A stretch of 64,000 nt of DNA. Source: Methanoculleus methanifontis (GTDB lineage: Archaea > Halobacteriota > Methanomicrobia > Methanomicrobiales > Methanoculleaceae). Shown here piece after piece: positions 35,201 to 62,922 of this stretch. The DNA is taken from contig NZ_VCYI01000008.1 in the NCBI RefSeq assembly GCF_030464365.1, positions 62,001 through 126,000 of the forward strand. Reading direction: 5' to 3'. Below the pieces are notes generated by a model. It was not told the origin of the DNA. It saw nothing but the letters and a program-made list of their open reading frames with translations, and made no database searches. Position numbers and translations under genes: made by a program. Position 1 is the stretch's first letter, and each line of letters starts with the position of its first letter.

Positions 35201-35446
35201 GCGGGGCTAAAGGACTGTTTCGCCTGCTTCCCCGCCTCGCAACGGAGTAGCGTCGAGGATGTCCGCGAGGTGGTGAAGACCGCTCTCGCCTGGACGCAGC
35301 GGTATCTTTCCAGGATACGCGCCGGATGCTTCCCGCCCCGGTCGGACACGCGTTCCTGCCCGCCCTACTGCGGGTTCAAGACCGTCTGCCGGTTTGACGC
35401 CCTGCGGCTGCTTAACGCGGAGGTGATTCCCGATGGGACTGACTGA
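32294..35446 (+). CDS. AddB/RexB-like helicase-nuclease subunit with iron-sulfur nuclease domain
   Basis: A 1050-aa protein. The N-terminal helicase-like part begins VFIVPTSHLAREI, without a canonical Walker A, as in the alphaproteobacterial AddB branch. The C-terminal RecB-type PD-(D/E)XK nuclease shows LVHRIAY, then DYKTGSS near 913-919. Cys in GDCPFRFYLERVL and three C-terminal cysteines in SCPPYCGFKTVC fit the iron-staple cluster of AddB nucleases. A 13-residue segment RTV(YI/FV)YGLFEPMP occurs twice, 24 residues apart (near 179-215). It overlaps the AddA-like gene by 14 nt; together they should process double-strand DNA ends. Confidence 0.85.
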   Translation: MSPAVLYRQLPGEGLEAFIAEFRKVAARDPFGTVFIVPTSHLAREIVRRLGEEGAPVVADTVTTLSGFARKIFLDRATSETLISGTESRLILTRLLASGRYPLLSGTGAINELATLFEVILMRKVNYPAALGDLATAKCVEIARLFDAYRRFLDEHDLVDESTLFARVVRMLSDTGWFRTVYIYGLFEPMPRAGGSHHLCPLRTVFVYGLFEPMPLERDLLFALRESAEEFHYSIPYDGNPAVFADDGEWLLPDTVISGDAPDTRRSRLAAQFSRSEPVDCGGCVRLAERRDRLDEVRAIAQEIRDLVAADVRPDEIAVAFPDFASVLPYVEEVFPDFGIPYAASDGLPLSASPLVRALLDIAAVPAHGYRRADVVALVTSPYLPVTCGCELDLLSREARITAGHWDERLTVLARAVEEERERPDIPELVKSRLAAKAASIESARDTIRMLFADLSALEGTKTIADHTAAYRSLLERWQAPVMPENGDPDLLDDEARVLGEFIDIIAAFERFARLLPDAEISLAEFSSLLEQVAGETRTAGRRNNGGVWVVGVREVAHLAIPYLFIGNLVEGVMPRLTTRLPFTTDAETRRLGTRSREDILREERYYFTAALLSGRSGVYLSYPATDGATPVIGSGFVDAVREVFSPETWGSGDFPDSGLAAARRAGALLARRETPDRMPPGLSVREAVRRLNIENYHRRAGYDSPYDGMLGDDPTIVAALAERFGDGAVFSPTALETYGDCPFRFYLERVLGLAPLPEADPDLTAQERGALVHRIAYRFYSGWTCDGNGPVTGACYADALRRLLEAGREETDRFAFETPAWVADKEHLLGSPAAGKGLLERFLQHETEVAASRFVPHAFEVSFGLPLVPGEVDAISTPDAVAIPLGTETIRLRGRVDRVDVLPEGRFIITDYKTGSSHIRLKDIEAGRALQLPLYLLAVERLTGMEGVAGTYYTLRRGEVTNKPVFWDAGLKDCFACFPASQRSSVEDVREVVKTALAWTQRYLSRIRAGCFPPRSDTRSCPPYCGFKTVCRFDALRLLNAEVIPDGTD

Positions 35447-38400
35447 ACGCCAGGCGCGGGTCGCGCTCGACCACTCGAGGAGTACGTGCGTCACCGCCGG
35501 TGCGGGGACGGGGAAGACGCACGTCCTGGTGCAGAAGTACCTCAGCCTGCTTGAGTCCGGTGTCGGCGTCGACAACATCCTCGCGCTGACCTTCACCGAG
35601 AAGGCGGCCGGCGAGATGAAAGTCCGGGTCCGCCAGGCGATCGCGGAGAAGGAGGGCGAGCGGTGGGACGCGATCCGCGACGAGTTTCTGTGGGCGAAGA
35701 TCTCGACTTTCCACTCCTTCTGCGCCTCGGTTCTCCGGGAGTTCCCCATTGAGGCCGCCGTGGGGCCGTCCTTCGCCGTCCTTGACGAGCGGGAGGCGTT
35801 CCGGCTCCGTGAGGAGGCGATCGACGATCTCATCCACGGCGATCCGCCCGCGGCGTGCCGGGACGCGGTGATCGGCGCTCTCCGGGCTGTCGGAGCCTAC
35901 GAACTGAAGAACTACCTCGAGGCGCTGTACTCCCGCCGCGGGGCTGCGGAAGCGTTCTTTGCCGCGCTCGCGGAGAGCGAGGAGAGGGTGCTTGACGCCT
36001 GGCGGGCGGCCGTGGAGCGGCACCGGGAGGCGGCGTCCGGGGAGTTCTTCGCCCGGGCAGGCGACGCAATCGCAACCCTCCGGGACCTTGGTGCCCGCTA
36101 CCCGGACGAGCGGGACACCGCCGGAGCCTACCTCCGGGCGATCGAGCCCTGTCTCGTCGGTGAGATCGCGGTCGCCGAACTTGCCGGGGTTCACGACGAG
36201 TCACGTTTCCGCAGGAACATGGGACAGAAGAAGAACTGGACAGGGGACGACCTCAAAAACCTCCGAGAGGCCTACGGCGTTCTCGACCAGTGCCTCAAAG
36301 ACCACGGAGACGCCTGCTCCCTCACCCTTGATGCGTCCGACCCCTTCACCCGGGCGACGCTCGACTTCCTCCACGACCTCGCTACAGTCTTCTCGGTCTT
36401 TCTTGGCGCGGTCGATGCCGAGAAACGGCGACACAACGCCCTCGACTTCGACGATCTGGTGAACCGCACCCACCGGCTCTTTTGCGACCGGGAGGATATC
36501 GTTGCGGCGCACTTTCGGAGCCGGTTCCGGTATATCCTGGTCGACGAGTTCCAGGACACCGATCCCGTCCAGATCGCCATCATCCGCGCCATCCTCGGCA
36601 ATTCCGCGAACCTCTTTGTCGTCGGCGACCCGAAACAGTCCATCTACCTCTTCCGGGAGGCCGACGTGACGCAGTTTGGGCATACCCGTGACCTGATCGA
36701 GCGTGATCTCGGCGGGGAGACGATCGCGCTCGACGTCAACTTCCGGAGCACTCCTGAGGTCGTCGAGTTCACGAATGCCGTCTTTTCCGCCCTGATGGCG
36801 GAGGCCGGCCGTCCCTGGGAGTTCCTCTACGAACCGCTGCATGCGTTCCGCCGAGACGATGCCGGCTCGGTCGAACTCCTTCTCTCCCCAAAGATCAGAG
36901 ACCGGGCGGCCGGCCGCCGGACCGAGGCGGAGATGGTTGCACGTAAGATCCGCTCCCTTGTCGAGCGGGGGGAGAAACCGGTCTGCCGCGACGGGGAAGC
37001 CCGGCCGGCAGGCTACGGCGACGTTGCTGTTCTCCTCGAGCGGCGGACGAACCTCGCCTACTACGAATGGGCGCTCGCCCGCTACGGCGTTCCCTACAAC
37101 GTCCACGCGGGGCTCGGATTCTACGAGCGCCAGGAGGTCTACGACCTCTACAATATCCTCCGGTTCCTTGTAAACGACCTGGACGACGCGGCCCTCTACG
37201 GCGTGCTCCGGTCGCCCTATTTCGGGTTCTCCGACGCCCGGCTCTTTCATATTGCCCGGGCTGCGGGGAGTTCTCTCTGGGAGCGGCTGCAGGCGGCGGA
37301 GGAGCCGGCGGCGGCAACCCTCCGCGACTGGCTCTCGCTTTCCCGCAGGCTCCCGCCTGCCCGCCTCCTCCGCCGGATTGTCGAGACCTCAGGGATCTAT
37401 CTCGTCTTCGGCGGGATAGCCGGGGGCGAGCAGGCCGCGGCGAACGTTGAGAAACTGATCGCCCTCGCAAGGGATGCCGACTGCGCCACGCTTCCAGGGT
37501 TTGTCGCGGAACTCGGCCGCTCCATCGACGACGCAGAGCGGGAAGGCGATGCCCCCCTCGACCTCGCATCCGCGGACGCTGTCTCGATCATGACGGTGCA
37601 TGCCGCGAAGGGGCTCGAGTTCCCGGTCGTCGTCGTTCCCGACCTCGCGGAGACACCGCGGTCCGGCGGGGGCACGATCATGGTAGAGGAGGGGCTGCTG
37701 CTCGGGGTTTCGATACCGAACCCGGCAGACGATCACGAGCGCGAGGAGACGCCCGTCCTCCGGCTCCTCAAGGACGAATACCGGCAGAAGGGGGAGGCGG
37801 AGCGTAAACGCCTCTTCTACGTCGCGGTCACCCGGGCAGAGGATCACCTGATCCTCTGCGGGGAGATGCCGAACGCGGTCCCGGAGAGCCTCGCGGACGG
37901 CAAGACCCGGATGGCCTGGCTCGCGCACTGCCTGGGGCTCTGCGATGAGGTCTACGCCCGGGGCGAAGCCGTCCTCGGGACGCTCCGCATCCCGCTCACC
38001 CTCGACCCCGCGGCGATCCCGGTCGACGTGCAGGAGACCGCCCCGGTCTGCCTGCCGGTGCCCGACGACGTCCCCGCGGCGCCCGTCCCGGTGGGCATTC
38101 CTTCCAATGGGAAGAAGGAGCGGGTCTACTCGGCAAGCGAGCTTGAGGCGTACCTCCGTGGCCCGGCGGAGTCCCGATCGACCGCGGATGACGCGCTGAC
38201 CCGCGGTCTGGTCGTCCACGAGGTCTTCCGCGGCCGCGATCCCGCCGCGGTGCTGCGGCGGTACGGGCTGGACCCTGCCGGGGCTGCGGAGTACCAGGAA
38301 CTCTACGTCCGGTTCCTTGCATCGCCCCTGATGCGGGGGATCGTCCGCGACCACCGCGAGGTGCCGTTTTCGGCCCGGGTGAACGGGTTTGCGTTCAGGG

Positions 38401-38663
38401 GGGTCATCGACCGGCTGGTGCAGCGGCAAAACGGCACCTGGATGCTCATCGATTACAAGACCGGGACGCCGGGGGACGCCGGGGAGTATGCGATCCAGAT
38501 GACCATCTACCGCCGCGCCGCTGGCCAGATTCTCGGGGGTCCGGTCACGCCCTACCTCTATTTCGTCGATGCCGACCGCTGGGCGGAGATCGAGGTGGAC
38601 GAGGATCTGGTCTTTGCCGAGATCTCCCGTGCGATCAGCGGGATCGAGGAAGAAGGTCTTTGA
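35433..38663 (+). CDS. AddA-like UvrD-family helicase-nuclease subunit
   Basis: A 1076-aa superfamily 1A helicase. Motif I TAGAGTGKT near the N-terminus, motif Ia ALTFTEKAAGEM, motif II LVDEFQDTDPVQ, motif III VVGDPKQSIYLFR, motif V MTVHAAKGLEFPVVV, motif VI YVAVTRAEDHLIL. A C-terminal PD-(D/E)XK nuclease has FRGVIDRL and LIDYKTGTPGD. It overlaps the preceding AddB-like frame, giving the AddAB arrangement in which both subunits carry a nuclease and AddA is the motor. Most archaea resect ends with HerA-NurA/Mre11-Rad50, so this pair is a notable bacterial-type system. Confidence 0.9.
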   Translation: MGLTERQARVALDHSRSTCVTAGAGTGKTHVLVQKYLSLLESGVGVDNILALTFTEKAAGEMKVRVRQAIAEKEGERWDAIRDEFLWAKISTFHSFCASVLREFPIEAAVGPSFAVLDEREAFRLREEAIDDLIHGDPPAACRDAVIGALRAVGAYELKNYLEALYSRRGAAEAFFAALAESEERVLDAWRAAVERHREAASGEFFARAGDAIATLRDLGARYPDERDTAGAYLRAIEPCLVGEIAVAELAGVHDESRFRRNMGQKKNWTGDDLKNLREAYGVLDQCLKDHGDACSLTLDASDPFTRATLDFLHDLATVFSVFLGAVDAEKRRHNALDFDDLVNRTHRLFCDREDIVAAHFRSRFRYILVDEFQDTDPVQIAIIRAILGNSANLFVVGDPKQSIYLFREADVTQFGHTRDLIERDLGGETIALDVNFRSTPEVVEFTNAVFSALMAEAGRPWEFLYEPLHAFRRDDAGSVELLLSPKIRDRAAGRRTEAEMVARKIRSLVERGEKPVCRDGEARPAGYGDVAVLLERRTNLAYYEWALARYGVPYNVHAGLGFYERQEVYDLYNILRFLVNDLDDAALYGVLRSPYFGFSDARLFHIARAAGSSLWERLQAAEEPAAATLRDWLSLSRRLPPARLLRRIVETSGIYLVFGGIAGGEQAAANVEKLIALARDADCATLPGFVAELGRSIDDAEREGDAPLDLASADAVSIMTVHAAKGLEFPVVVVPDLAETPRSGGGTIMVEEGLLLGVSIPNPADDHEREETPVLRLLKDEYRQKGEAERKRLFYVAVTRAEDHLILCGEMPNAVPESLADGKTRMAWLAHCLGLCDEVYARGEAVLGTLRIPLTLDPAAIPVDVQETAPVCLPVPDDVPAAPVPVGIPSNGKKERVYSASELEAYLRGPAESRSTADDALTRGLVVHEVFRGRDPAAVLRRYGLDPAGAAEYQELYVRFLASPLMRGIVRDHREVPFSARVNGFAFRGVIDRLVQRQNGTWMLIDYKTGTPGDAGEYAIQMTIYRRAAGQILGGPVTPYLYFVDADRWAEIEVDEDLVFAEISRAISGIEEEGL

Positions 38664-46369: not shown

Positions 46370-46756
46370 TCAATACACCCTCTTCTCCGGGACTGCCCCC
46401 CTGACCCCGCCCCGGGGGTCTTCGACGTCGCCGGCATACCGCGGGATGACGTGGACGTGCAGGTGCATCACCGTCTGGCCGGCGGCTTTTCTCACGTTCA
46501 CGCCGATGTTGTAGCCGTCGGGGTGGAACCGGTCGTCGAGGAGGGTTTTCGCCTCCCGGACGAGGGCGAGGAGGGCGGCGTGTTCCGCATCGGTCGCGTC
46601 GAAGAAGTCCGCGACGTGGCGGAAGGGGATGAGGAGGAGGTGGCCGGGGCGATTTGGTCGAAGCCGAGCTCCGAACATTAGGTGGGGAGATCCGAACATT
46701 AGGTGGGGAGCTCCGAACATTAGGTGGGGAGCTCCGAACATCAGGGTACATTGCAC
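46370..46756 (-). pseudogene. Truncated duplicate of the HIT-family gene
   Basis: Positions 46370-46652 are nearly identical to the 3' part of the HIT gene at 48505-48882, down to the shared DNA beyond its stop codon, and keep the HIT motif HLHVHVIPRY. The 5' part, including the CPFC zinc pair, is replaced by a 21-bp tandem repeat that reads LMFGAPH in frame. The frame is open, but the missing N-terminus makes it a probable pseudogene. Confidence 0.75.
46666..46746. repeat. 21-bp tandem repeat, about 3.6 copies
   Basis: Unit CCGAACATTAGGTGGGGAGC plus one base, at 46671, 46692 and 46713, then a 13-bp partial copy with one change at 46734. Units are head-to-tail without spacers, so it is not a CRISPR array. 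Confidence 0.9.
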
Positions 46757-48139: not shown

Positions 48140-48504
48140 TGGAGGACCCTGGGAGACGATTGGGTGGACACTGCGTTGGATGTTATACCCGGCTACTGTT
48201 GATTGGAGAAATGATTGGTGTCTATTGGAGAATTGATTCCAAATATACTACCTGGAATGGCACATCGGGCGCCTGTGAATTAATATTTTAGAGTCACTAT
48301 TGGAGAATGATTGGAGATAGTGATGCTATCCATGATACTGGAGGGCCGGACGACCACGATGACTGAAGGCGCTTCTCCTCAACATCTTTGCTGCTCTCGC
48401 TTCCCCTTGAATCCAGGTTGGGCAGCCTCTCGATCGGATCCTGCTGAACACTCTATCTGCCTTTTGATGTGGTGAAATTCCTCCCGGTATCTCCGCTCAG
48501 CTCC
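48140..48504. other. Intergenic region with short direct repeats
   Basis: No gene seen. ATTGGAGAA followed by (A)TGATT occurs three times between 48200 and 48316. It separates the regulator fragment from the 3' end of the HIT gene. Confidence 0.45.
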
Positions 48505-48882
48505 TCAATACACCCTCTTCTCCGGGACTGCCCCCCGCACCCCGCCCCGGGGGTCTTCCACGTCCCCGGCGTACCGGGGGATGAGGTGGACGTGCAGGTG
48601 CATCACCGTCTGGCCGGCGGCCTCCCCGACGTTCACGCCGACGTTGTAGCCGTCGGGACGGAACCGGCCGTCGAGGAGGGTTTTCGCCTCCCGGACGAGG
48701 GCGAGGAGGGCGATCTCTTCCGCGTCGGTCGCGTCGAAGAAGTCCGCGACATGGCGGAAGGGGATGAGGAGGAGGTGGCCGGGGTTCGCCGGGTACTTAT
48801 CGTAGCGGGCGTAGCAGAGGTTGTTCTCCAGGATGATGTCTTCGGGAGATGGGTTGCAGAAGGGACAGCCTATATCACCCAT
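48505..48882 (-). CDS. HIT-family nucleotide hydrolase/transferase
   Basis: A 125-aa histidine-triad protein. An N-terminal CPFC zinc pair, then PGHLLLIPFRHVADF and the triad HLHVHLIPRY. HIT enzymes hydrolyse dinucleoside polyphosphates or nucleoside phosphoramidates. The ATG at 48882 lies inside the end of the HNH gene (13-nt overlap); the frame is open to 48918 but the family begins at the zinc pair. The 3' two-thirds is duplicated at 46370 and a remnant lies at 55911. Confidence 0.88.
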   Translation of the reverse strand: MGDIGCPFCNPSPEDIILENNLCYARYDKYPANPGHLLLIPFRHVADFFDATDAEEIALLALVREAKTLLDGRFRPDGYNVGVNVGEAAGQTVMHLHVHLIPRYAGDVEDPRGGVRGAVPEKRVY

Positions 48883-50021
48883 GCTTCGTACCCCCGGACG
48901 TGGATGAGGTAGGCGCATTTCTCGGTGAGGTGCTCAAACGCCCGGTCCTGCCAGTCGCTCTTCGGTGCCTCCAGGCCGAGGAGCGAGACCGCGATCTCCC
49001 GCTCGAACGGGCGAGGGGCGTGGTCATGGAGGAGGTCCCAGTAGCCGATGATGCACTCCCGCCGGGACTTGAGGAGCGCGGGGTCGGGGATGCGGTCGCG
49101 TTTTTTGGCGTTGACGGAGTCGAGGGCGGGAAGGAGGTTCCAGAGGTCGTTGTTCTTCCAGACCGAGAACGGGAGGACGTGGTCGATATGCATCGCCTCC
49201 GGCGAGCGAATGGGCTTCCCCGACCAGACGCAGGCGAGCGTCCCTTCCTCCGCAAAGACTGACCGGTAGATGTTCCTTGCATCCGCGATCGCCCGTTCGG
49301 TCGTCGGGGTCTTCGTGAGCAACGAGAGCATGCACTCCTCGGTGACGGTGCCTGTCCTGTCGGCGGCCGCGGTGAACTCGGCCCACTTCTTCAGGAGGCA
49401 CTCCTCCCCGGAGATGAAGCCTCCGAAGTGCTCGAAGACCGTGCAGAGGTCGCGGGAGAGGGAGAACCGGCCGGAGTTCTCGATCAGGGAGGCCCGGTCG
49501 AGGGGGCTGTCGCCGGAGAGCCGGTAGAGCGGCCGGTCGTAGTCGAAGACCGAGTAGTGCTCCTTCGACTGCGAGTAGCCGAGGTGCTTCATCGGCATCT
49601 CCGTTATGGTCTTGCGGATTGCTTTGGCGAGCGTCCGGAACGCGGGCCGGACCTCGGCCGGCATGGTGCCGCGGGCATAGTCGTTGTAGAAGACCGAGAT
49701 CCCGCCCCGGTCCCGGTAGTAGTCGATGACCGGCATGAAGTGCTTCCGGAACGAGACGGCCCTGCCGGTCTCCTGGTCAGGCGTCTCCCCGTTCTTCTGC
49801 GGGATGAACGCCGGGGCTGCAAAGATCGGGTAGTAGTAGAGCAGCCACTTCTCGACGAGCAGCCCGAGGGGAAACGAGACCTGATCGCCGTCGTCCTCCC
49901 GCAGGTGCGAGGACTGCTGGCAGACCTCGATGACGCCCCGGAGGAGGGCGTACTTGTAGGTCGCGTCGGCGCTGTCGCGTTCGATGATGTTGTTGATCCG
50001 GCGGTACTGGGCGAGATCCAT
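48870..50021 (-). CDS. HNH endonuclease-domain protein
   Basis: A 383-aa protein with a C-terminal HNH nuclease: CVWSGKPI, MHIDHVLPFSVW, then NDLWNLLPALDSVNAKKRD. The long N-terminal part (RRINNIIERDSADATYKYALLRG) is shared with HNH proteins common in prokaryotic defence loci, but a specific system is not identified. The ATG at 50021 was chosen because conserved sequence starts there; the frame is open to 50141. It overlaps the HIT gene and lies just downstream of the two-gene helicase system with a 164-bp gap. Confidence 0.82.
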   Translation of the reverse strand: MDLAQYRRINNIIERDSADATYKYALLRGVIEVCQQSSHLREDDGDQVSFPLGLLVEKWLLYYYPIFAAPAFIPQKNGETPDQETGRAVSFRKHFMPVIDYYRDRGGISVFYNDYARGTMPAEVRPAFRTLAKAIRKTITEMPMKHLGYSQSKEHYSVFDYDRPLYRLSGDSPLDRASLIENSGRFSLSRDLCTVFEHFGGFISGEECLLKKWAEFTAAADRTGTVTEECMLSLLTKTPTTERAIADARNIYRSVFAEEGTLACVWSGKPIRSPEAMHIDHVLPFSVWKNNDLWNLLPALDSVNAKKRDRIPDPALLKSRRECIIGYWDLLHDHAPRPFEREIAVSLLGLEAPKSDWQDRAFEHLTEKCAYLIHVRGYEAWVI

Positions 50022-50185
50022 TGTTATTGCAGGAGAGATCGGGGGGCGGGGGGATATGGGTGTCGGTTTTTGTTGGGGGTGTTGATGGACCGGTCCCTTG
50101 TAGCCGTTTTCATAATCGCGCACGAGCGGGTCGTACCCCACCCCGGTTGCAGCCTCCCGATGAAGAGTTGAGTGCCTGTTGGTCT

Positions 50186-52276
50186 TTATTTTTCAAACTT
50201 CGCATATTCACGGATGTACTTAAATGGGAACGGTAGAACTGTACTTTGCCCTGTTCGCACAAAGTCAACGTCCATTGTGGGGAGAACCCCTTTGAATACC
50301 AATTTTGAGCCATTGACCGCTACTATCTTGCGGAGATGGCAGGCATTGTTAATGGAAAACTGGATTGCCCCCTGACGATCTCCTACAAAGTAGTGGGCTT
50401 CAGATTCGTTCGCTCCGAAGTATTTGATATTAAGTGAAGCACTGAAAAGATCGTCCATATTTTCTTTCTTTTTAGAGAAATGGAGCCTCACTCTATACTT
50501 CTCGTACAGGGTGTCTCTGAGATGTTCCGCTGCCTTTGAACCCTTACCAAGGCAGAGGTTCAGGATGCCCTTAAGAGCCTTCTTTGAGATCTCTTGATGC
50601 CCTAACGCATTCAGGTTTTCTACCAATGTGGACACCTTTTCGCTCCCTGCTTGAGGTATCCTGGCGAAGCACTCCTTGACAACAAAAGCCAGATCGCTTC
50701 CCGTTCTCATCCCTTCGGGAAGCTCGTCATCCATTTCCCGGATAACGTTCCTGATCTCCTTCAGGTTAGGAATAGTTATTTGATCAGTGCGGTAGATCAA
50801 ATTCTTGTCGCCTGCTTCTGATACGACAAGGCCCTCAGGTGAGAGGTGCGTCTGCCATTTACTATCTTTTGCTCCTTTGAGGAGATCGACATACTCCTGG
50901 CATCCTACATACCAATCAAGAGAGGTTGGATCTACTTCCCGGAATTCGAAGCGACCGTCAGGGAAGATATCCATGAAAATGATATTCTCTTCAGCACTAT
51001 CGTACGCGGCAAATGTCCACACCCCCGTTGCATTCAACCTGCTCCAGTCAAAAAGGCTTAATTTTTGCTCTTGTAGATCTCGCTTGATTAGCTGCTCTTT
51101 AATCAATGTCTTCGCTATCGCATCTGAAATTTCTTTTACGCCCTCTATGGTTATATTCTGCCTGATAACGCCGGAATCCGAAGCGAGATATTCATCCTTT
51201 AGGTTATTTTCCTCATAATAAGCAGCATCATGTATGATTCGATAATTGACCGCCTCCTTTTTCTCACGTTTTCCGATGGTAAGCAGTTTCGGATTTCCCA
51301 TGTAGAACAGAAGCCCCTTCTTCAGCGATCGAATCATCTCCGGAGATTCATCTGATCCAACTCGATCCACTATGCGGACGGGTTGCCCATCGAGTCTGGA
51401 TCGAAGATGTTCTGGCTTCTTCAAAATCGTCTCTCTCAACTCAATGGTATGCGGCCTATCTAAAACGCGCAGTTTAACGGACATATACTCGGATAGATGT
51501 TCTTGAATACTATCCAGAACATGATGCAAAACGCCTGCTCGACTCCTATCATATGCCGTGCAGGAACTGAAGTCAATGAAATGAACATGTGCCCTTTTGC
51601 TATTAAGACCCATGCGGATATAGGTCCTCTTAGGATCGGGCTTGGGGTCACGCGGCAACAGCCTGCGGAGGGTGCCTGTTCCTTCATGCAGAACGTACTT
51701 GGGTTTCCTGTTAAGAGCAGATCTATTTACTTTTGGATCATTTTGAATAGAATAGAGTGTCCGGTGGCGCTTGACTTCCACATTGAGCAGATAATCCCTA
51801 TCGAGGGCAACCTCAAAAGCATCAATATAATCTTTGTTTTTGCCGCCCGGACTGGGGACAATAAGCAAAGTTCCTGTCAGGTTACAGTAATGGAATTCTT
51901 TATAGCGCGAACGCGATGATGCAAGCGAGTTTATCAGGATTCGTGCGAGCCAGGCCTCACATATGCAACCATCTGATTCCGTCCTGAGCGCTCTGGGCTT
52001 GGCTTCGATAACTGCATCCTCTGAAAAATCTTCATCTTTTCTGATTCGTGAGATCAATTCATAAGTGTCCACCGGTCGCCTGAACATGGCATATGCATAT
52101 GAGCTATATGCGTACAGGACGGCATCTGCTTTATAATCGTCACCGATCAGGCGGTCTAACTGATATGCGCCCTTCCATCCCCCTTTAGCATCCCTTTTAA
52201 GTCGGATAAATGCGAAATCACGTTCAATAGCATCGATGTTAAACTCGATCTCCAGTGTATTCGTTTTAATCTTCAT
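50186..52276 (-). CDS. 696-aa protein of unknown function, partner of the helicase
   Basis: A 696-aa protein I cannot assign. The N-terminal third contains KADAVLYAYSSYAYAMFRRP, a conserved-looking LNVEVKRHRTLYSI and HVHFIDFSSCTAYD; the middle is charged and helical; the C-terminal 100 residues (SASLNIKYFGANESEAHYF, VLPFPFKYIREYAKFEK) look like a separate domain. No catalytic motif is certain. The ATG overlaps the helicase stop (ATGA), with AAGGAG 7 nt upstream, so the proteins are made in a fixed ratio. DNA is markedly AT-richer than the flanks, indicating recent transfer. Size and helicase partner recall pPIWI-RE modules, but no PIWI motif was found. Confidence 0.6.
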   Translation of the reverse strand: MKIKTNTLEIEFNIDAIERDFAFIRLKRDAKGGWKGAYQLDRLIGDDYKADAVLYAYSSYAYAMFRRPVDTYELISRIRKDEDFSEDAVIEAKPRALRTESDGCICEAWLARILINSLASSRSRYKEFHYCNLTGTLLIVPSPGGKNKDYIDAFEVALDRDYLLNVEVKRHRTLYSIQNDPKVNRSALNRKPKYVLHEGTGTLRRLLPRDPKPDPKRTYIRMGLNSKRAHVHFIDFSSCTAYDRSRAGVLHHVLDSIQEHLSEYMSVKLRVLDRPHTIELRETILKKPEHLRSRLDGQPVRIVDRVGSDESPEMIRSLKKGLLFYMGNPKLLTIGKREKKEAVNYRIIHDAAYYEENNLKDEYLASDSGVIRQNITIEGVKEISDAIAKTLIKEQLIKRDLQEQKLSLFDWSRLNATGVWTFAAYDSAEENIIFMDIFPDGRFEFREVDPTSLDWYVGCQEYVDLLKGAKDSKWQTHLSPEGLVVSEAGDKNLIYRTDQITIPNLKEIRNVIREMDDELPEGMRTGSDLAFVVKECFARIPQAGSEKVSTLVENLNALGHQEISKKALKGILNLCLGKGSKAAEHLRDTLYEKYRVRLHFSKKKENMDDLFSASLNIKYFGANESEAHYFVGDRQGAIQFSINNACHLRKIVAVNGSKLVFKGVLPTMDVDFVRTGQSTVLPFPFKYIREYAKFEK

Positions 52277-55200
52277 TTTAGCAACTCCTTCTGGATAAAT
52301 ACTAAAGCCTCGTCACTCAGAGAGCCATCCTGGCAAACAAATGGAATCTCAACAATTCTCCGTTCTGAGGATATTATTGGGCGGAACTCTTTCCTGGATT
52401 CTCCTAGGATATTGATTACAAAAACACGATCTGCGTTGCAGCCTTTCATTTTATCCTTGATATTAAGGATTATATTTTCTGCAGGAACAGCAATATGGTC
52501 ATTCCAGAGTTTAAAATCAAAGTAGACGTTGTTTTCCGTCTTGAAATCAAACATTTCATACTCGGAGATATCCAGTTCGCTGAGCTGGAGTCCTAACTGC
52601 TCCTGCAAGATATAGCGACCACATACCTCACCCAGCGCTCCCTTGTAGATATTGTTAAATATGGGAGGGGTAAGCATCAGCTCACCTTCAGCGAACCCAG
52701 TTGCCCACCCTCTGTCATTAAAGAGGTCATACAGGGGCTTTATCGCCATTAGTTCCTGCAGTCTTGCGGCTCTCTCACTAACCTCCTGTGTTTGCTTATC
52801 CGGCGAAAAAAAGACCTCTATATTCTGATAATCATTTTCCTGAATATACTTGTATGAGCGGGCAGGGGATGGGAGTTCAACATAAATTGGATGCCACTTA
52901 GGATCACAGTTCTCTTTTGAAGGGATAGAAGGTTGCTTAAGGGTTTGCTCTCGCAGATTTTGCCATAACTCTACCTTACTCCTGTTCCAGGGGTTTTTCA
53001 AGAAACCATGTATAAATGTAGCAGACCAGTTACTCCTGTTTGATGCCCGGTTCTGAAATCCAACATATTCATCTGATATGGCACTTTTTCCTCTGGCAGA
53101 CTCCAGTAATGCAGTATATTCTCTGACGGGAATCACATCATCAGGCAAAATGAATTGCACCAAGTGCCTTCTGATAAATGAGTCAGCAAGGACATGAATA
53201 GTCGGTGATTTCATATTTGTTCGACAAATTCTTCCGATAGCCTGGATCACTATCTTGTTAAGGTAACGAGTGTACGCCTCTGTCTGATAGAGGCTGATAT
53301 AGTCTTCCACATGCTTCTTCTTCTTGTATCTGCCGACCAATCGAGAAAAAGCCTCGTCCAACTTACGTTCGAAAGTTTTCGGAGAGATAGAACCATCCTC
53401 GACGAGAAATTCGAGTTGGAACAGGTATTTTATGAAATCATCATTTTTGAGATCGTCTGAGTTGATGTTTACAAGAAGATGCGTCGGGCGGTCTACGTAT
53501 ATAGCATCGATATCCATCAATCCACGATCGGGGAACCCGTTAATCTTTATCGGGTGTGTAGATTCGGGGATTGCGTATTGCAGGTTTTGTCCTGCTCCGA
53601 TTGTTTGATATGTGGAGATTATAAAACGTCTTTCGCCAGATTTCAGGGCCTCTAGTAACTCTGGTTTCTTCTTATCAAAATTCTCGCCGGTCAAAACAAC
53701 AATCGTATCTGAATGAAGTTTTCCCTCCATGTCTGGATATCTACTTTGTATCCTTCCTGCGTATTGATAAAGAGTCTCCAGATCAAACCGGGGATTTGAC
53801 CGTTTTGGAAACGCGTTAAAAAAGCAGAGAAATGCACGAATTTCTGTGTTCTCCAAAAAATAGTTCCATGCTGTGAGAGCACGCACATAGCGGGAGAAAA
53901 TGTAACCAGGATCCTGCTCCTCCGGGTTGCTCCCCCTCACCACATTCCATAGTGCATTTGCAGCCTCTCGGTCCTCCATTAGCGACTCCAGCCTCGCCAA
54001 ACTCTCTTCAAAATCATCTGTGCCGATGAATTCCGTCTTGATTGATACCCGCTCATATCCCCGGTTTGTCTCAGAAATGGCTTCAGTTATTCTCTGCAAG
54101 GCGGCACCTGAAGGTCGAACAAATGAACTTCTGAGCCGTGAGCGTAGATATTCCAGATCATAATTCCCGATATTCGTATACAACCCCGCAGTAGCAGACA
54201 TTCCTACAACCATCGCTCGCGAGCAAACTTCAACCAGGAACGATTCTGGTGTCCTTGAAAAGGTACACCTATATATTTTTGAAAGTGTGTCATGCTCGTC
54301 GCTATCCACGATATCATAATAACTGAAACCAGCATCGTAGAACCCATGTTCTTGGATAGCATTGGTTTTGCCGCGTAATTCATAGGGGGTATTATGTTCC
54401 ATTATGCTGTCGGTAAGAAATTTTACAGTGCCTGAATCAAGGTGGAAATTGTTTAAAACCGTCTTTATGGCGATATCTAATGGGTAAACTTCCTGAACCG
54501 TGTCGTCTTCGTTTTTAAGCTGGCAGTAGTTCTCAGCCAGATATTCGACACCATTCTGGAAATATGTGAGAAACCCAGCAATTTCGCGAAGCAGGGACCG
54601 AATATTTACTCCAGACCGTCTCTCATTTCCCTCTAAAGCCATTATCCAGTTGGTACGGGTTTCAGTATCCTGCACCACTTCGATCCTTTTATGTTGGGCA
54701 TCCAGAACGTGGTGAAACTGATAGTCGTAAAAGAGGAAGTTCCGTTTATTCGAAGAGAAGTTAGATGATGATTTACAGGTATGTTGAAGGTTGTACTTCT
54801 TGAATATCAGGTCAGCTTTTCTCTGGAAATTTACGACAATCTCATGAAGTGATGGCCAGTCTTTTTCGGAAGCCAGGCGCTCTCGCTGTTTAGATTCCTG
54901 CAATAGAACTCCTGGGCATTCGTTTTCCATGAGATGGTTGTGGATATTAAGGAAGAGATCGAGGAGATCTGCCCGCGAATCAAGACCTGATTTTATAATG
55001 TTCTTGAGCACATTTTCTTTGGTCGCATCAAATTCATCAATAAAGATCAGCGATCCGTCGATCAACCGTTTCTGGAAATAATATGAACTCTCTATAATGG
55101 GGGTGTTCTTGCGGACAAATTTGTCTATGCTGAGAAAAATAATCGTCTTTTCATCTGTAAAGACAGCAGGGTACAGGTTCCCTATCCACTGATAATCTGG

Positions 55201-55737
55201 ATTAGTTTTGACCGCATCAAGTCTTTCCACTTTGGTCTTGAACTCTTGGTTTAGTTGGTTGGTGATGAATTTCCGAAAATCCGGTTCGAGTTCCTTACGT
55301 ATTTGTTCACTGAGGGCTATTTTTACCTTTTTGTCCATCCTTTCGCTATTTTCCAAAGTTTCAACGTAAGATTTTAGATCAAGGTAACTCTTGACTTTAA
55401 ATTGCTCCGGGATCTGGGAATCCACAGATAAAAGATTGTTAATGACGGATTCGGAGTTTGAGTTGATGAAGATTACATATTTATCGTAGTCATCTTCAGC
55501 ATTGTCAGCTTTGAATCGTTCCTTTAGTTCGAGAAAGGGGAGATTTTTCTTAAGGTTGGTTATGAAGAATATCTTTCGCTTCTGTTCTGCAAAATCCCTG
55601 TAATGTTTGTAAATGAAATCGAGTACATTATGTGTTTTTCCAAAACCAGTGGGCATGCTCAGGAGAAGGAGCCCCGTCGTATCCTTTTCTAAGCAATGCT
55701 GCTCGAGAATTTCTTGCACAGATGTCCTCCACACCAA
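52273..55737 (-). CDS. Large superfamily 2 helicase with probable PD-(D/E)XK nuclease tail
   Basis: A 1154-aa protein. Walker A SMPTGFGKT (27-35), motif Ia FFITNLKKNLPF, motif II IDEFD (233-237), motif III MSATAG (513-518), a motif V-like YQTIGAGQNLQYA and motif VI QAIGRICRT. The C-terminal 122 residues have GALGE (E1037), FDF (D1064), then YFDFK (D1074, K1076), a plausible PD-(D/E)XK nuclease. The DEFD box and TGFGKT loop are closer to Cas3-like or DinG-like helicases than to Lhr or RecQ. It is AT-rich and first in a two-gene operon; the likely role is antiviral. Confidence 0.75.
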   Translation of the reverse strand: MVWRTSVQEILEQHCLEKDTTGLLLLSMPTGFGKTHNVLDFIYKHYRDFAEQKRKIFFITNLKKNLPFLELKERFKADNAEDDYDKYVIFINSNSESVINNLLSVDSQIPEQFKVKSYLDLKSYVETLENSERMDKKVKIALSEQIRKELEPDFRKFITNQLNQEFKTKVERLDAVKTNPDYQWIGNLYPAVFTDEKTIIFLSIDKFVRKNTPIIESSYYFQKRLIDGSLIFIDEFDATKENVLKNIIKSGLDSRADLLDLFLNIHNHLMENECPGVLLQESKQRERLASEKDWPSLHEIVVNFQRKADLIFKKYNLQHTCKSSSNFSSNKRNFLFYDYQFHHVLDAQHKRIEVVQDTETRTNWIMALEGNERRSGVNIRSLLREIAGFLTYFQNGVEYLAENYCQLKNEDDTVQEVYPLDIAIKTVLNNFHLDSGTVKFLTDSIMEHNTPYELRGKTNAIQEHGFYDAGFSYYDIVDSDEHDTLSKIYRCTFSRTPESFLVEVCSRAMVVGMSATAGLYTNIGNYDLEYLRSRLRSSFVRPSGAALQRITEAISETNRGYERVSIKTEFIGTDDFEESLARLESLMEDREAANALWNVVRGSNPEEQDPGYIFSRYVRALTAWNYFLENTEIRAFLCFFNAFPKRSNPRFDLETLYQYAGRIQSRYPDMEGKLHSDTIVVLTGENFDKKKPELLEALKSGERRFIISTYQTIGAGQNLQYAIPESTHPIKINGFPDRGLMDIDAIYVDRPTHLLVNINSDDLKNDDFIKYLFQLEFLVEDGSISPKTFERKLDEAFSRLVGRYKKKKHVEDYISLYQTEAYTRYLNKIVIQAIGRICRTNMKSPTIHVLADSFIRRHLVQFILPDDVIPVREYTALLESARGKSAISDEYVGFQNRASNRSNWSATFIHGFLKNPWNRSKVELWQNLREQTLKQPSIPSKENCDPKWHPIYVELPSPARSYKYIQENDYQNIEVFFSPDKQTQEVSERAARLQELMAIKPLYDLFNDRGWATGFAEGELMLTPPIFNNIYKGALGEVCGRYILQEQLGLQLSELDISEYEMFDFKTENNVYFDFKLWNDHIAVPAENIILNIKDKMKGCNADRVFVINILGESRKEFRPIISSERRIVEIPFVCQDGSLSDEALVFIQKELLK

Positions 55738-55910
55738 CGTAACCGTTTTTAATAGTTTTCCTATGGATTAGCCAATCTAATATGTCTTTTGATTAGGTCG
55801 AATTCTGTAGAAAGCGAATTCCCTAATTATACCGCGCTACAAGGTTTGGTTGGCCTGTCCACTGGTATCTGTCTGTTGTAATGATGGAGTAAAAAAGGAA
55901 GCCCTTTAAC

Positions 55911-55959
55911 TCCCGGACGAGGGCGATCTTTTCTGCGTCTGTCGCGTTGAAGATATTCG
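55911..55959 (-). pseudogene. Short remnant of the HIT gene
   Basis: CTCCCGGACGAGGGC then, after a 9-bp deletion, a GATCTCTTCCGCGTC-like stretch and GTCGCGTTGAAGA match the HIT gene at about 48687-48745 with several changes. Only about 50 bp is left. It lies immediately upstream of the AT-rich helicase system. Confidence 0.5.
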
Positions 55960-56003
55960 GGGAGAGATTCTGCCGGCAGCGTCCAGAATGGGACGAGCCC
56001 CGT

Positions 56004-56498
56004 TCACCGGATCACCAGCGCAGGCAGCTTCCCGCCGTGCATCTCCTGGTATCTCTCCTTCAAAGCCTCCTCAACAGCTCCCGGGTGCTCATCGACGACC
56101 ATCCACCCGTACTGCAGTTCCCACCCCGAGGAGAGGAGCGCCCATACCGGATATTTGGCGGTATGACGGGTCGCAAGTTCCCGGTATCGGCCGTGGAGGG
56201 TGTTCTTGCTCCCGGCGTATGTTCCTGCCGACCCGATGTAGATCGTCGGGCAGTCGCCGATCTTGAGGAGCCGGTCGAACCGGCTGCAAAGAAATCTGTC
56301 TGCCATGTCCCAGCCGATTGACCCGGCAAGACCGACGGCCTTCTCGCGGACCTCTTCTGCCGGAGTTCCGTGCTGGTGAACCCGGATGACGTAGACCCCT
56401 TTTCGCTTCGGCGGTTCCGCATCCTGAAACCGCGTAAACTCAAACGCATCGAAGAGGCCGTTGCAGCAGTCCCTGGCCGGTGAAGAATTCTCCCTCAT
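56004..56498 (-). CDS. GIY-YIG-like nuclease-fold protein
   Basis: A 164-aa protein. KGVYVIRVHQHG and, some 50 residues on, CPTIYIGSAG with GSKNTLHGRYREL form the GVY...YIG pattern and the conserved Arg of the GIY-YIG nuclease fold. A final LHGGKLPAL-like segment (HGGKLPALV) is common at the end of such small proteins. It starts 10 bp after the PLD protein stop on the same strand, so they form an operon, probably a restriction or repair pair. Confidence 0.7.
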   Translation of the reverse strand: MRENSSPARDCCNGLFDAFEFTRFQDAEPPKRKGVYVIRVHQHGTPAEEVREKAVGLAGSIGWDMADRFLCSRFDRLLKIGDCPTIYIGSAGTYAGSKNTLHGRYRELATRHTAKYPVWALLSSGWELQYGWMVVDEHPGAVEEALKERYQEMHGGKLPALVIR

Positions 56499-56507
56499 CG
56501 TCTACTC

Positions 56508-57278
56508 TCACCGATAGTAATTCTTGTAGCAGTCATTACAGACCGGCCGGGTCTTTGTCGTCGTATGTTTGGTCCCACACTTGTGGCATACCTTCTCTTT
56601 ATAGTCCGGGTTGTTGAAGCGGGCCCAGGAAGCAAAGCATTTCGGGCAGTACGGCTTCTCCGGGTTATAATCGATCGTCTCTCCGCACCGGATACAGTAA
56701 CCAACCTCTCCCAGAACCGAATCCAGCGCCTTCTCAAGGAATCCCTTCTTCGGAGGGGCTTTCAACTTCGGTGATATGGTTCTAGTGGGTTTTCTCGGCT
56801 CATATGTCCGTTGACTTGCGGTGGCTGCCGTAGCCGTCTGATTGTTGCTCTCCGGGCTGCTTGCCTGCAGGATCCTTTCAACCTCTTCGAGGGTCTGGGT
56901 GTAGAGATCGGGATCTGTCTCCCGAAAGAATCGGACACCCATCTCCCAGTTGTTGCTCTGCGAGTGCTCGTAGAGGTTCATCGAAGTGATGATGCCGAAC
57001 TGTTCGTTGATGTAGCATTTGGCGTGGAGATCGTTGCATTTGTAGAGTTGAGAGTTCTGCAATTGTTTGAGAAATGCCAGATCTTCCTGCTTAGGGTTTG
57101 TGTCGCTCCGGTAGACGATGTCGATGGGGACCTTTTTGTCGTCAATGCTCTGGAGGTATTTCTTGTTGTGCGGGGTCAGGCTGATGTAAGGGGAGACGAT
57201 GAAGATTTGCTCCTCAGCGATTTTGATGATCTCGATGAATGCTGCGCTTACCCCTGGTGCGTCGAGGAAATCTGCCAT
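56508..57278 (-). CDS. PLD-domain protein with C-terminal zinc ribbons
   Basis: A 256-aa protein. The N-terminal phospholipase D-like domain has one HKD-type motif, DLHAKCYINEQFGIITSMNL, so catalysis would need a dimer. After a Ser/Thr/Pro-rich linker come paired CxxC motifs (CIRCG, CPKC, CHKCG, CNDC), two zinc ribbons likely to bind nucleic acid. Architecture resembles PLD nucleases of restriction systems. Operon with the GIY-YIG gene. Confidence 0.85.
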   Translation of the reverse strand: MADFLDAPGVSAAFIEIIKIAEEQIFIVSPYISLTPHNKKYLQSIDDKKVPIDIVYRSDTNPKQEDLAFLKQLQNSQLYKCNDLHAKCYINEQFGIITSMNLYEHSQSNNWEMGVRFFRETDPDLYTQTLEEVERILQASSPESNNQTATAATASQRTYEPRKPTRTISPKLKAPPKKGFLEKALDSVLGEVGYCIRCGETIDYNPEKPYCPKCFASWARFNNPDYKEKVCHKCGTKHTTTKTRPVCNDCYKNYYR

Positions 57279-57505
57279 TAGGTTGCTCCTGATGGTATAC
57301 TATACAGCGAGGAGCCGAAAAAGATTCTTATACGTCCCCGTTGCTCTTGATCATTGATACTAAACTGTTTTGCTGAAGATCTGACTTAACGGGGAGTTGA
57401 GCGCCAGCAGAAAGTATTTGACGGTCGAGAAGAAATTTCCAATCCGGCATATAGGGGCTATAGTGAAATTGGGCAATATCACGAGGACAATGAAGTAGGG
57501 AGCTT

Positions 57506-59517: not shown

Positions 59518-59724
59518 AGGTGGAATTTGATCGTTTATATTTAAAACATTCACTGAGTAGAAGCCGTTCGAATAATCCTATCTTCCTGGCAGGTTGGTTT
59601 CACTAATCTGGAGAGAACATCCTCCCATAAGCCCTTGCCGAGAGAACGCCCCCTCCCATGTGGCGAGAACCGTTTCATCAACTATATCATAGCGTAACTA
59701 TTACTTTTGTTACAGGTGCGTTCA

Positions 59725-62700
59725 GTGTCTTCGGATCTTACTTTTATTACTAATGAGGATGGCAATACGTTACTTGATCGTTTTAATGCCTTAGTTAAGG
59801 ACACCACGCTTTTCGATTGTCTCGTCGGATATTTTTATTCGAGCGGATTCTATGCTCTTGAGAGGGCCCTGGAGAATACCGAGAAGATCAGAATCCTCAT
59901 TGGCATCAGCACCAATAAAACGACATACGATCTTATCCAGACTGCCGCATTTGAGGGGCATTCAACACTCCTCCTTTCCAATAAGGACCTCAGGAATCAA
60001 TACTCCAGCATGGTCAAAGAAGAGCTGGATCAATCCGAAGACGCCTTCGACGTAGAAAAGGGTATTCTGACCTTCATTGAGTGGTTGAGGAGTGGAAAAC
60101 TTGAGATCCGTGTCTACCCCTCAGAGAAGATCCATGCAAAACTCTACATAATGACCTTCAAGGAGAGTGACAGGGACCAGGGGCGCGTTATCACTGGTTC
60201 AAGCAATTTCTCTCAAGCGGGGCTGCAGGATAACCTTGAGTTCAACGTTGAACTCAAGATGCGGGGAGATTACGAATATGCGCTTAACAAGTTCAATGAA
60301 CTCTGGGAAAACTCGGCCGATGTGTCGGAGAGTTATGTCGAGACGATACGGACGCAGACCTGGCTCAACGATTCTATCACCCCGTATGAACTCTACCTGA
60401 AATTCCTCTATGAATATCTGAAGGAGAAGATCAATCTCGATAAGCAGGAAACCGGGAATGAATACATCCCTGAGGGGTTCATGGACCTGCAGTACCAGAA
60501 GGACGCGGTGCAGGACGCAAAGTTAAAACTGGAGGAGTACGGCGGCGTTTTTATCTCCGATGTGGTCGGCCTCGGGAAGACGTACATAGCAACCCTCCTT
60601 GCCCAGCAGCTTGATGGGAGGACGCTCGTTCTTGCTCCTCCTGTCCTGATAGACCGGGAGAATCCGGGTTCATGGCCGAATGTTTTCCTCGATTTTGGCG
60701 TGCGCCAGGCAGATTTCGAATCGGTCGGGAAACTGGATCACGTTCTTAAGAGGGGAACCGAGCGGTACAAGAACGTGATCATCGACGAGGCTCATCGATT
60801 CCGGAACGAGATGACGCAGAGTTATGAGAGCCTGTATCGGATCTGCAGGGGAAAGCGGGTGATTCTGGTGACGGCAACCCCGCTCAACAACTCTCCCAAC
60901 GATATCCTGAGCCAGATAAAACTCTTCCAGAACGCCAGAAAATCCACTCTCCCAAACCCGAAGGTGCGCAACCTCCAGAGATATTTCAATACCCTCCAGA
61001 AACGGCTTGACGGGCTGGACCGGCAGCGGGATCGCGAAGAGTACATGAGAGTTGTCAGGGAAAATGCCGAGGATATCCGTGAGAATGTGCTCCAGTACCT
61101 GATGGTCCGGCGCACGCGGGCGAGCATCGCTGCGTACTACAGCGAGGATCTGAAGCGGCAGAACCTCAAGTTCCCCGAGGTTGAGGACCCTCAACCGGTG
61201 TATTACCACTTTGATGACCACACGGACTCGGTCTTTCTGGAGTCGATCGACCTGATCGCGAACCGGTTCAAGTATTCCCGCTACACCCCGCTCCTGTATC
61301 TGAAGGAAGGAACCTCACATCCCGAGGAACTGGCCCAGAAGAACATGATGAAGTTCATGAAGATAATGCTCTTGAAGAGGTTGGAAAGCAGTTTTTTCGC
61401 GTTTAATATGTCTATCAGCCGTTTCATCGGGTATTATGAAGTATTTATCCGGGAGGCCGAGAGAGGGAATGTCTACATCAGCACTACGCACACGAACGTG
61501 ATCTTCGACCTCCTCGAAGAGGATAATATGGATAAAGTCGCCTCTCTTATCGACGATAAGAAGGTCTATTGTCTGCCGTCATCCAGTTTCACTCCGGCGT
61601 ATCTGGAGGATCTCAGGTATGACCTCGAGATCCTCAAGAGACTGCGTACGCTATGGGATACTGTTGAAGACGACCCGAAGAGAGCCGCGTTTGTTGAAGC
61701 GCTCTCAATGGATCTCCGGCTCAAAGACCAGAAGTGTATCATCTTCACCGAGGCGAAAGAGACGGCGGATTATCTTACGGATGCCCTGAAGGAACGGTTT
61801 GGGGACTGCGTTCTTGAGTATCATGGATCGTCCTCGGAGAGTGAGAGAATCGCGATCATCGAGAACTTTGATGCGAAGGCCCGGCACCCGAAGGACGAGT
61901 ATCGGATTCTCGTGACGACAGAGGTTCTCTCGGAGGGGGTGAACCTTCATCGCTCCAACGTGGTGATCAACTACGACATCCCGTGGAACCCTACGCGGAT
62001 GATGCAGCGGGTCGGCCGTATCAACCGTGTGGATACGAAGTTTGAGAGGATACATATCTTCAATTTCTTCCCTGCAGGCCCTATCAACGAGGAGATCGGC
62101 CTGCAGGAGGCTGCTGAGGCGAAGATAGCAGCGTTTATCGAGATGCTTGGGAACGATGCCCCTCTCCTGACTGACGAAGAGATCAAGTCGCATGATCTCT
62201 TTACGAAATTGACGTCCCGAAAGACGATCACGGGAGAGGATGAAGAGGAAGACCTTGAACTCGGGTATCTGACGTTCCTGCGGGAGATACGGGACTCGGA
62301 TCCTGATCTCTTTAAAAAGATAAAGCACCTCCCGAAGAAGGCGAGAGCCGGCCGTGCATCTGGTGAGCCCGGGCATTCGGTGGTCACGTTCTTCAGGCGG
62401 GGGAAACTCCGGAAGATCTTTCAGACGACGACCCGCGGGCAGGAGGCTGTTACCGGGGAGGTGGATTTCCTGCGTGCGGCGGAACTCCTCCGGGCAGAGG
62501 CATCGACGAAGAAGCACGTTATCAGACCGGACTTTTACCCGCTGCTAGAGTCCAACAAAGCCGCTTTTGAGGATGTGTTTGCCATCGAGAGCACTATTGC
62601 GCCCTCACGCGGGAGTAGAGGAGGCGAGGTCAAATTTACCGGCATCCTGAGAGCGATCCAGCGCTCGCCGGCGTTTACGGATGAAGACGAAGAATATGTG

Positions 62701-62922
62701 GGAAAGGTTCTCGGGCTGATAGAAGACGGGGCGCTCCCGAAGGCGACCATCAAGAAGATTCTCACAAAGATTGCGTATACCCCGGAACCTCTCCCCATGC
62801 TCGCAAAGATCAAATCTGAGATCTCGGAAGAGTTCTTCCGCCCGGCATTCGGGCCGGTCGATATCTCCGGGCCTAAAGAGGTCATCCTCTCCGGGTACTT
62901 TGCAGGAGGTGAGTCTGCATGA
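59725..62922 (+). CDS. PLD-domain SNF2-like helicase of a restriction-modification system
   Basis: A protein of about 1065 residues. An N-terminal PLD nuclease domain with HAKLYIM and later TGSSNFSQ is followed by a superfamily 2 helicase: DVVGLGKTYIA, IIDEAHRFRN, VTATPLNNS, and QRVGRINRVD. This is the architecture of helicases paired with Eco57I-type methyltransferase-nucleases in ATP-dependent restriction systems. GTG at 59725 has AGGTG at 6 nt; the TTG at 59707 is an alternative start. Its stop overlaps the next gene (ATGA). Confidence 0.85.
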   Translation: MSSDLTFITNEDGNTLLDRFNALVKDTTLFDCLVGYFYSSGFYALERALENTEKIRILIGISTNKTTYDLIQTAAFEGHSTLLLSNKDLRNQYSSMVKEELDQSEDAFDVEKGILTFIEWLRSGKLEIRVYPSEKIHAKLYIMTFKESDRDQGRVITGSSNFSQAGLQDNLEFNVELKMRGDYEYALNKFNELWENSADVSESYVETIRTQTWLNDSITPYELYLKFLYEYLKEKINLDKQETGNEYIPEGFMDLQYQKDAVQDAKLKLEEYGGVFISDVVGLGKTYIATLLAQQLDGRTLVLAPPVLIDRENPGSWPNVFLDFGVRQADFESVGKLDHVLKRGTERYKNVIIDEAHRFRNEMTQSYESLYRICRGKRVILVTATPLNNSPNDILSQIKLFQNARKSTLPNPKVRNLQRYFNTLQKRLDGLDRQRDREEYMRVVRENAEDIRENVLQYLMVRRTRASIAAYYSEDLKRQNLKFPEVEDPQPVYYHFDDHTDSVFLESIDLIANRFKYSRYTPLLYLKEGTSHPEELAQKNMMKFMKIMLLKRLESSFFAFNMSISRFIGYYEVFIREAERGNVYISTTHTNVIFDLLEEDNMDKVASLIDDKKVYCLPSSSFTPAYLEDLRYDLEILKRLRTLWDTVEDDPKRAAFVEALSMDLRLKDQKCIIFTEAKETADYLTDALKERFGDCVLEYHGSSSESERIAIIENFDAKARHPKDEYRILVTTEVLSEGVNLHRSNVVINYDIPWNPTRMMQRVGRINRVDTKFERIHIFNFFPAGPINEEIGLQEAAEAKIAAFIEMLGNDAPLLTDEEIKSHDLFTKLTSRKTITGEDEEEDLELGYLTFLREIRDSDPDLFKKIKHLPKKARAGRASGEPGHSVVTFFRRGKLRKIFQTTTRGQEAVTGEVDFLRAAELLRAEASTKKHVIRPDFYPLLESNKAAFEDVFAIESTIAPSRGSRGGEVKFTGILRAIQRSPAFTDEDEEYVGKVLGLIEDGALPKATIKKILTKIAYTPEPLPMLAKIKSEISEEFFRPAFGPVDISGPKEVILSGYFAGGESA

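Follow-up and report, generated by a model that had tools for sequence, protein, structure and literature searches.

A DdmDE-family gene pair in the methanogen Methanoculleus methanifontis, very probably acquired by inter-domain gene transfer

Described DdmDE systems and the archaeal pair

DdmDE, an Argonaute plus helicase–nuclease system, has been described from bacteria. In Vibrio cholerae its main targets are small plasmids. DdmE, guided by DNA, locates plasmid DNA and recruits DdmD out of an autoinhibited dimer; DdmD then loads onto the non-target strand, moves along in the 5′→3′ direction, and cuts (PMC12409362). This pair, encoded on VPI-2 (PDB 8u3k, 9ezy, and 9bgk), works with DdmABC, sited on another island. 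Structures of DdmDE also represent Lactobacillus casei (PDB 9ixm, 9iw3, and 9ix4).

Here we describe two overlapping genes within a 64,000-nucleotide stretch of M. methanifontis DNA (contig NZ_VCYI01000008.1; hereafter the window). A preliminary description made from the sequence alone had left this helicase and its 696-aa partner as an unassigned, probably antiviral system. The pair clearly matches an already described defence system, DdmDE, and we hold with high confidence that it is a plasmid-defence system of this kind that a methanogen acquired by inter-domain gene transfer. The host genome carries two mcrA-type genes that exceed the curated cut-off, which identifies the organism as a methanogen.

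Identity to experimentally studied DdmDE is low, about 16–21% in structural alignments. The V. cholerae proteins share the folds, the helicase and nuclease motifs, and the inactive PIWI half with the archaeal pair at about 16–19% identity. The L. casei proteins likewise have both folds and are matched by the DdmE profile and the DdmD sequence, but identity is about 20% and the archaeal pair falls in a lineage of cyanobacteria and methanogens. Much closer counterparts occur in Methanosarcina sp. DH2 (DdmD 68%, DdmE 64%) and on plasmid pn2 of Nostoc sp. UHCC 0926 (DdmD 56%); both keep the same overlapping gene order, whereas their neighbouring genes are unrelated. The Nostoc genes are annotated only as hypothetical proteins.

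Family membership and sequence motifs of the two proteins

The longest ddmD reading frame (52273–55737, minus strand) opens at TTG 55737 and encodes 1154 aa; residue numbers follow this frame. A GGAGG Shine–Dalgarno sequence lies 6 nt upstream of GTG 55719, and homologues begin at the matching residue, so the gene probably starts at this GTG and encodes 1148 aa, the TTG codon probably lying too far upstream. Both reading frames, the second of 696 aa, and their ATGA overlap are as first described. The same 4-nt overlap is found in many cyanobacterial homologues, and translational coupling through it is likely (Table 1).

Table 1. Coordinates of the gene pair, its sequence features, and neighbouring genes (window positions unless a contig handle is given)
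Feature	Position	Strand	Description
ddmD	52273..55719	-	SF2 (XPD/DinG-like) helicase with C-terminal PD-(D/E)XK nuclease; probable GTG start
ddmE	50186..52276	-	Catalytically inactive long prokaryotic Argonaute, guide-binding sensor (predicted)
ddmD stop/ddmE start overlap	52273..52276	-	ATGA; direct sequence reading
Ribosome-binding site of ddmD GTG start	55726..55730	-	GGAGG; sequence
ddmD Walker A	55633..55650	-	TGFGKT, residues 30–35; T30, G31, G33, and K34 invariant (n = 32 homologues)
ddmD Walker B	55027..55041	-	IDEFD, residues 233–237; invariant (n = 32 homologues)
ddmD PD-(D/E)XK nuclease domain	52318..52704	-	Approximately residues 1012–1140; E1037, D1064, D1074-x-K1076
ddmE MID-like part	51065..51559	-	Approximately residues 240–404; Y354, Q373, K398
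ddmE PIWI-like half	50189..51064	-	Approximately residues 405–696; from column counts
Inserted cassette	50080..55958	.	Absent from congeners G010 and G029; 43.9% G+C
HNH gene	48870-50021		Pfam HNH_4; real start MDLAQYRRIN at about 50021
164-aa gene	56004-56498		Kept beside PLD gene in congeners
PLD gene	56508-57278		Pfam
SNF2 helicase with PLD domain, then overlapping type IIG restriction-methyltransferase gene	59707-62922 and L069:2919-6515		Second part just right of the window
IetA-IetS pair	L069:8845-12231

The helicase belongs to the DdmD family. PADLOC matched it to DdmD over residues 197–1122 (E = 4.3e-39), and phmmer against PDB chains recovered no family but DdmD, from L. casei (9ix4; E = 1.5e-58) and from V. 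cholerae (3.5e-37). An AlphaFold2 model (pLDDT 85, pTM 0.85) retrieved DdmD at all of Foldseek ranks 1–21 (E down to 1.6e-60; TM 0.77–0.83), ahead of DinG (ranks 22–24) and XPD.

The motifs are intact. E1037, D1064, D1074, and K1076 of the nuclease are each invariant in 32/32 homologues, and they remain so in a set of seven sequences that extends down to 20% identity; the SAT motif (S514 A515) and motif VI, QAIGRICR (Q832 A833 G835 R836 R839), are invariant or nearly so among the 32. Helicase and PD-(D/E)XK nuclease therefore both look functional. The preliminary description had read TGFGKT and DEFD correctly but thought them unusual; their near-invariance across the 32 homologues marks them as normal motifs of the DdmD family.

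Taken as a single sequence, the 696-aa protein matches DdmE weakly (PADLOC, E = 1.7e-5; L. casei DdmE 9iw3, E = 5.3e-11), which accounts for the earlier impression, formed by eye, that it matched no family. A profile built from 35 homologues aligns with L. casei DdmE at full length (E = 5.8e-65; positions 2–676 of 682) and with V. cholerae DdmE from the PDB (E = 1.5e-48). Structure prediction agrees: the AlphaFold2 model (pLDDT 86, pTM 0.85) retrieved DdmE at Foldseek ranks 1–6 (E = 3.1e-36, TM 0.71), beyond which came an entry titled "protein-DNA complex" (E = 2.7e-6) and Archaeoglobus Piwi (0.028). The protein is DdmE by profile and by fold.

Y354, Q373, and K398, each 97% conserved across the 35 homologues, fit the pattern of a MID pocket for the guide 5′-phosphate, a role that they may hold by analogy with the Argonaute family. 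The slicer residues of the PIWI half have been lost: column counts found no Asp conserved in ≥75% of sequences, so the DEDX tetrad appears to be absent. A VEVKRH-like stretch near residue 164 was considered as an N-terminal nuclease and rejected; the model shows it as part of the N-terminal strands in the Argonaute-like fold, and homologues do not conserve it.

A distant kinship with pPIWI-RE modules, which combine a PIWI-RE protein, a DinG helicase, and an REase, had been thought conceivable. One half of the partner does resemble PIWI, and the helicase resembles DinG/XPD, as the DinG entries at Foldseek ranks 22–24 attest. Full-length matches to DdmE and DdmD are, however, far better than any other by both profile and fold; two genes are conserved rather than three, and the nuclease is part of the helicase protein rather than a separate REase. 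We regard this reading as refuted and give it next to no credence. What stands of the earlier suggestion is the Argonaute link itself: the protein is a PIWI-containing inactive Argonaute, of the DdmE family. For the two proteins, PADLOC at E ≤ 1 gave no match besides DdmD, DdmE, and, weakly, a Cas3c helicase; neither protein matched the signature models of Hachiman, Zorya, DISARM, Druantia, or Mokosh, among which the preliminary description had been unable to place the pair.

A conserved two-gene operon carried as a discrete cassette

A DdmD scan of a genome collection covering 84,980 species recovered at least 56 loci. Both genes are present at 47 of them, from bacteria and archaea, and among the matches listed the great majority have ddmE immediately behind ddmD, usually with an overlap; the loci that depart from this arrangement are broken or fragmentary. 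Because this adjacency recurs so widely, the pairing is not due to chance. No other neighbour family recurs broadly at the ddmDE loci listed, which defines ddmDE as a two-gene module: the neighbourhood survey keeps the two genes together and adds no further partner family. No phage-borne relatives were found in 50,697 phage records. At several loci (L027/L058 from Methylobacter favarea, L059, L062, and L063), ddmD is broken by frameshifts, stops, or inserts; these split genes are decaying copies or assembly errors.

The M. methanifontis pair sits in a discrete cassette. Its G+C content of 43.9% compares with 61.5% for window positions 1–46000, in keeping with the AT-rich pair and GC-rich chromosome first noted. 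In congener G010 the sequences corresponding to window positions 48502–50079 and 55959–57366 are adjacent, their alignments overlapping by 5 bp, and in congener G029 the same flanks (50079 / 55981) lie 24 bp apart. Since the flanks abut in these genomes, the HNH gene and the 164-aa/PLD pair were separated by the arrival of ddmDE as a cassette. Apart from a 9-bp inverted match, perhaps due to chance, the insert ends show neither a target-site duplication nor terminal repeats.

Other congeners fill the same spot differently (congener loci L082–L089). G005 holds DarT–DarG (DarG E = 3.5e-89; DarT E = 7.8e-39) and G027 a UvrD-family helicase; in G033, DpdA-like and UvrD genes adjoin the HNH gene. 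An interval that is empty in some congeners and holds DarTG or a helicase in others is a defence hot spot of the genus. Beside the island, a HIT-family-like gene and gene fragments are repeated (window 46370–46756 and 48505–48918), and the genus has many copies of short segments from this region, at 70–92% identity.

To the right of ddmDE lie the SNF2–PLD helicase, the type IIG restriction-modification gene, and the IetA–IetS pair. The earlier mention of restriction genes is upheld by this type IIG gene, just beyond the window edge. Pfam likewise upholds the HNH, PLD, and NERD neighbours; the GIY-YIG label of the 164-aa protein is unconfirmed, with no match in Pfam, PADLOC, or NCBIfam. Family membership, the defence island, and the hot spot together sustain the defence role first proposed from gene context. 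Elsewhere in the window (32294–38663), an overlapping PD-(D/E)XK nuclease protein (1050 aa) and UvrD helicase-nuclease (1076 aa) resemble, in an archaeon, the bacterial AddAB/RecB-type pair.

Close spacing on the same strand could suggest that the HNH, 164-aa, and PLD genes act with ddmDE in a larger system, for example through HNH cleavage. Yet these genes are absent beside other ddmDE loci, save for weak HNH similarity at two loci in Clostridia (among the loci listed, the only other window neighbour seen is the SNF2–PLD helicase, at two), and congeners that lack ddmDE have the HNH and PLD flanks side by side. This proposal is thus largely refuted and very improbable. As candidate components the three genes were rejected: they are not conserved with ddmDE and occur without it in sister species.

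Inter-domain transfer and the likely target

No ddmD was found in the other listed members of the genus. The gene occurs in one other of 150 relatives, the distant G110 (29%), and in one other of 394 phylum genomes, Methanosarcina sp. DH2. Among the matches listed, the closest relatives of the pair are those of Methanosarcina sp. DH2 (68%), followed by Pelotomaculum and cyanobacteria (about 56%). In trees, the window copy clusters with that of Methanosarcina DH2, close to Pelotomaculum and within or next to a cyanobacterial clade, and lies far from G110, a member of the same order. These nearest relatives argue for inter-domain transfer. That ddmDE moved between domains is clear. As to direction, the archaeal copies fall within the cyanobacteria in the DdmD tree (AU p = 0.037 against monophyly of the cyanobacteria), a placement that the DdmE tree does not demand. 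A further proposal, which we think improbable, holds that methanogens, syntrophic Pelotomaculum, and cyanobacteria share a distinct DdmDE lineage adapted to archaeal cells, with a guide source or target (e.g., archaeal viruses or conjugative elements) unlike that of Vibrio or Lactobacillus.

By homology with DdmDE of V. cholerae and L. casei, the most likely function of the pair is DNA-guided plasmid elimination. The slicer-less DdmE would bind short single-stranded DNA guides and pair them with complementary plasmid DNA, opening the duplex and recruiting DdmD, whose resting state would be an inactive dimer. As a monomer, DdmD would then load on the displaced strand and translocate 5′→3′ with ATP, and its PD-(D/E)XK nuclease would degrade or nick the plasmid. 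For the archaeal pair, the kind of guide, the recruitment step, the preference for plasmids, and activity inside the cell are all presumed from the bacterial systems.

Earlier reasoning from gene context had pointed to defence against phages or plasmids; of the two, plasmids are the expected target. A DdmDE homologue that uses the same guide-and-recruit mechanism mainly to restrict methanogen viruses, or conjugative elements, instead of small plasmids would suit an island of anti-phage type genes, and triggers of DdmDE have been explored only in V. cholerae and L. casei. The V. cholerae system, however, works primarily against small plasmids (PMC12409362), and some bacterial relatives are plasmid-borne (L006, on Nostoc plasmid pn2, and L007, L008, and L009), which suggests inter-plasmid competition. 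We therefore consider a mainly antiviral role unlikely and retain plasmid elimination as the preferred reading.

The DdmDE system itself is already known; what is new is a divergent archaeal copy in a methanogen. A literature search, whose coverage lay outside the primary DdmDE papers, found no description of DdmDE in a methanogen. Sister species, with their precisely empty sites, record how such a cassette enters a defence hot spot. If the pair is active, Argonaute-based plasmid defence extends to methanogenic archaea, poor plasmid maintenance in some strains would have a reason, and the divergent set of at least 56 loci would show which DdmD and DdmE residues are essential.
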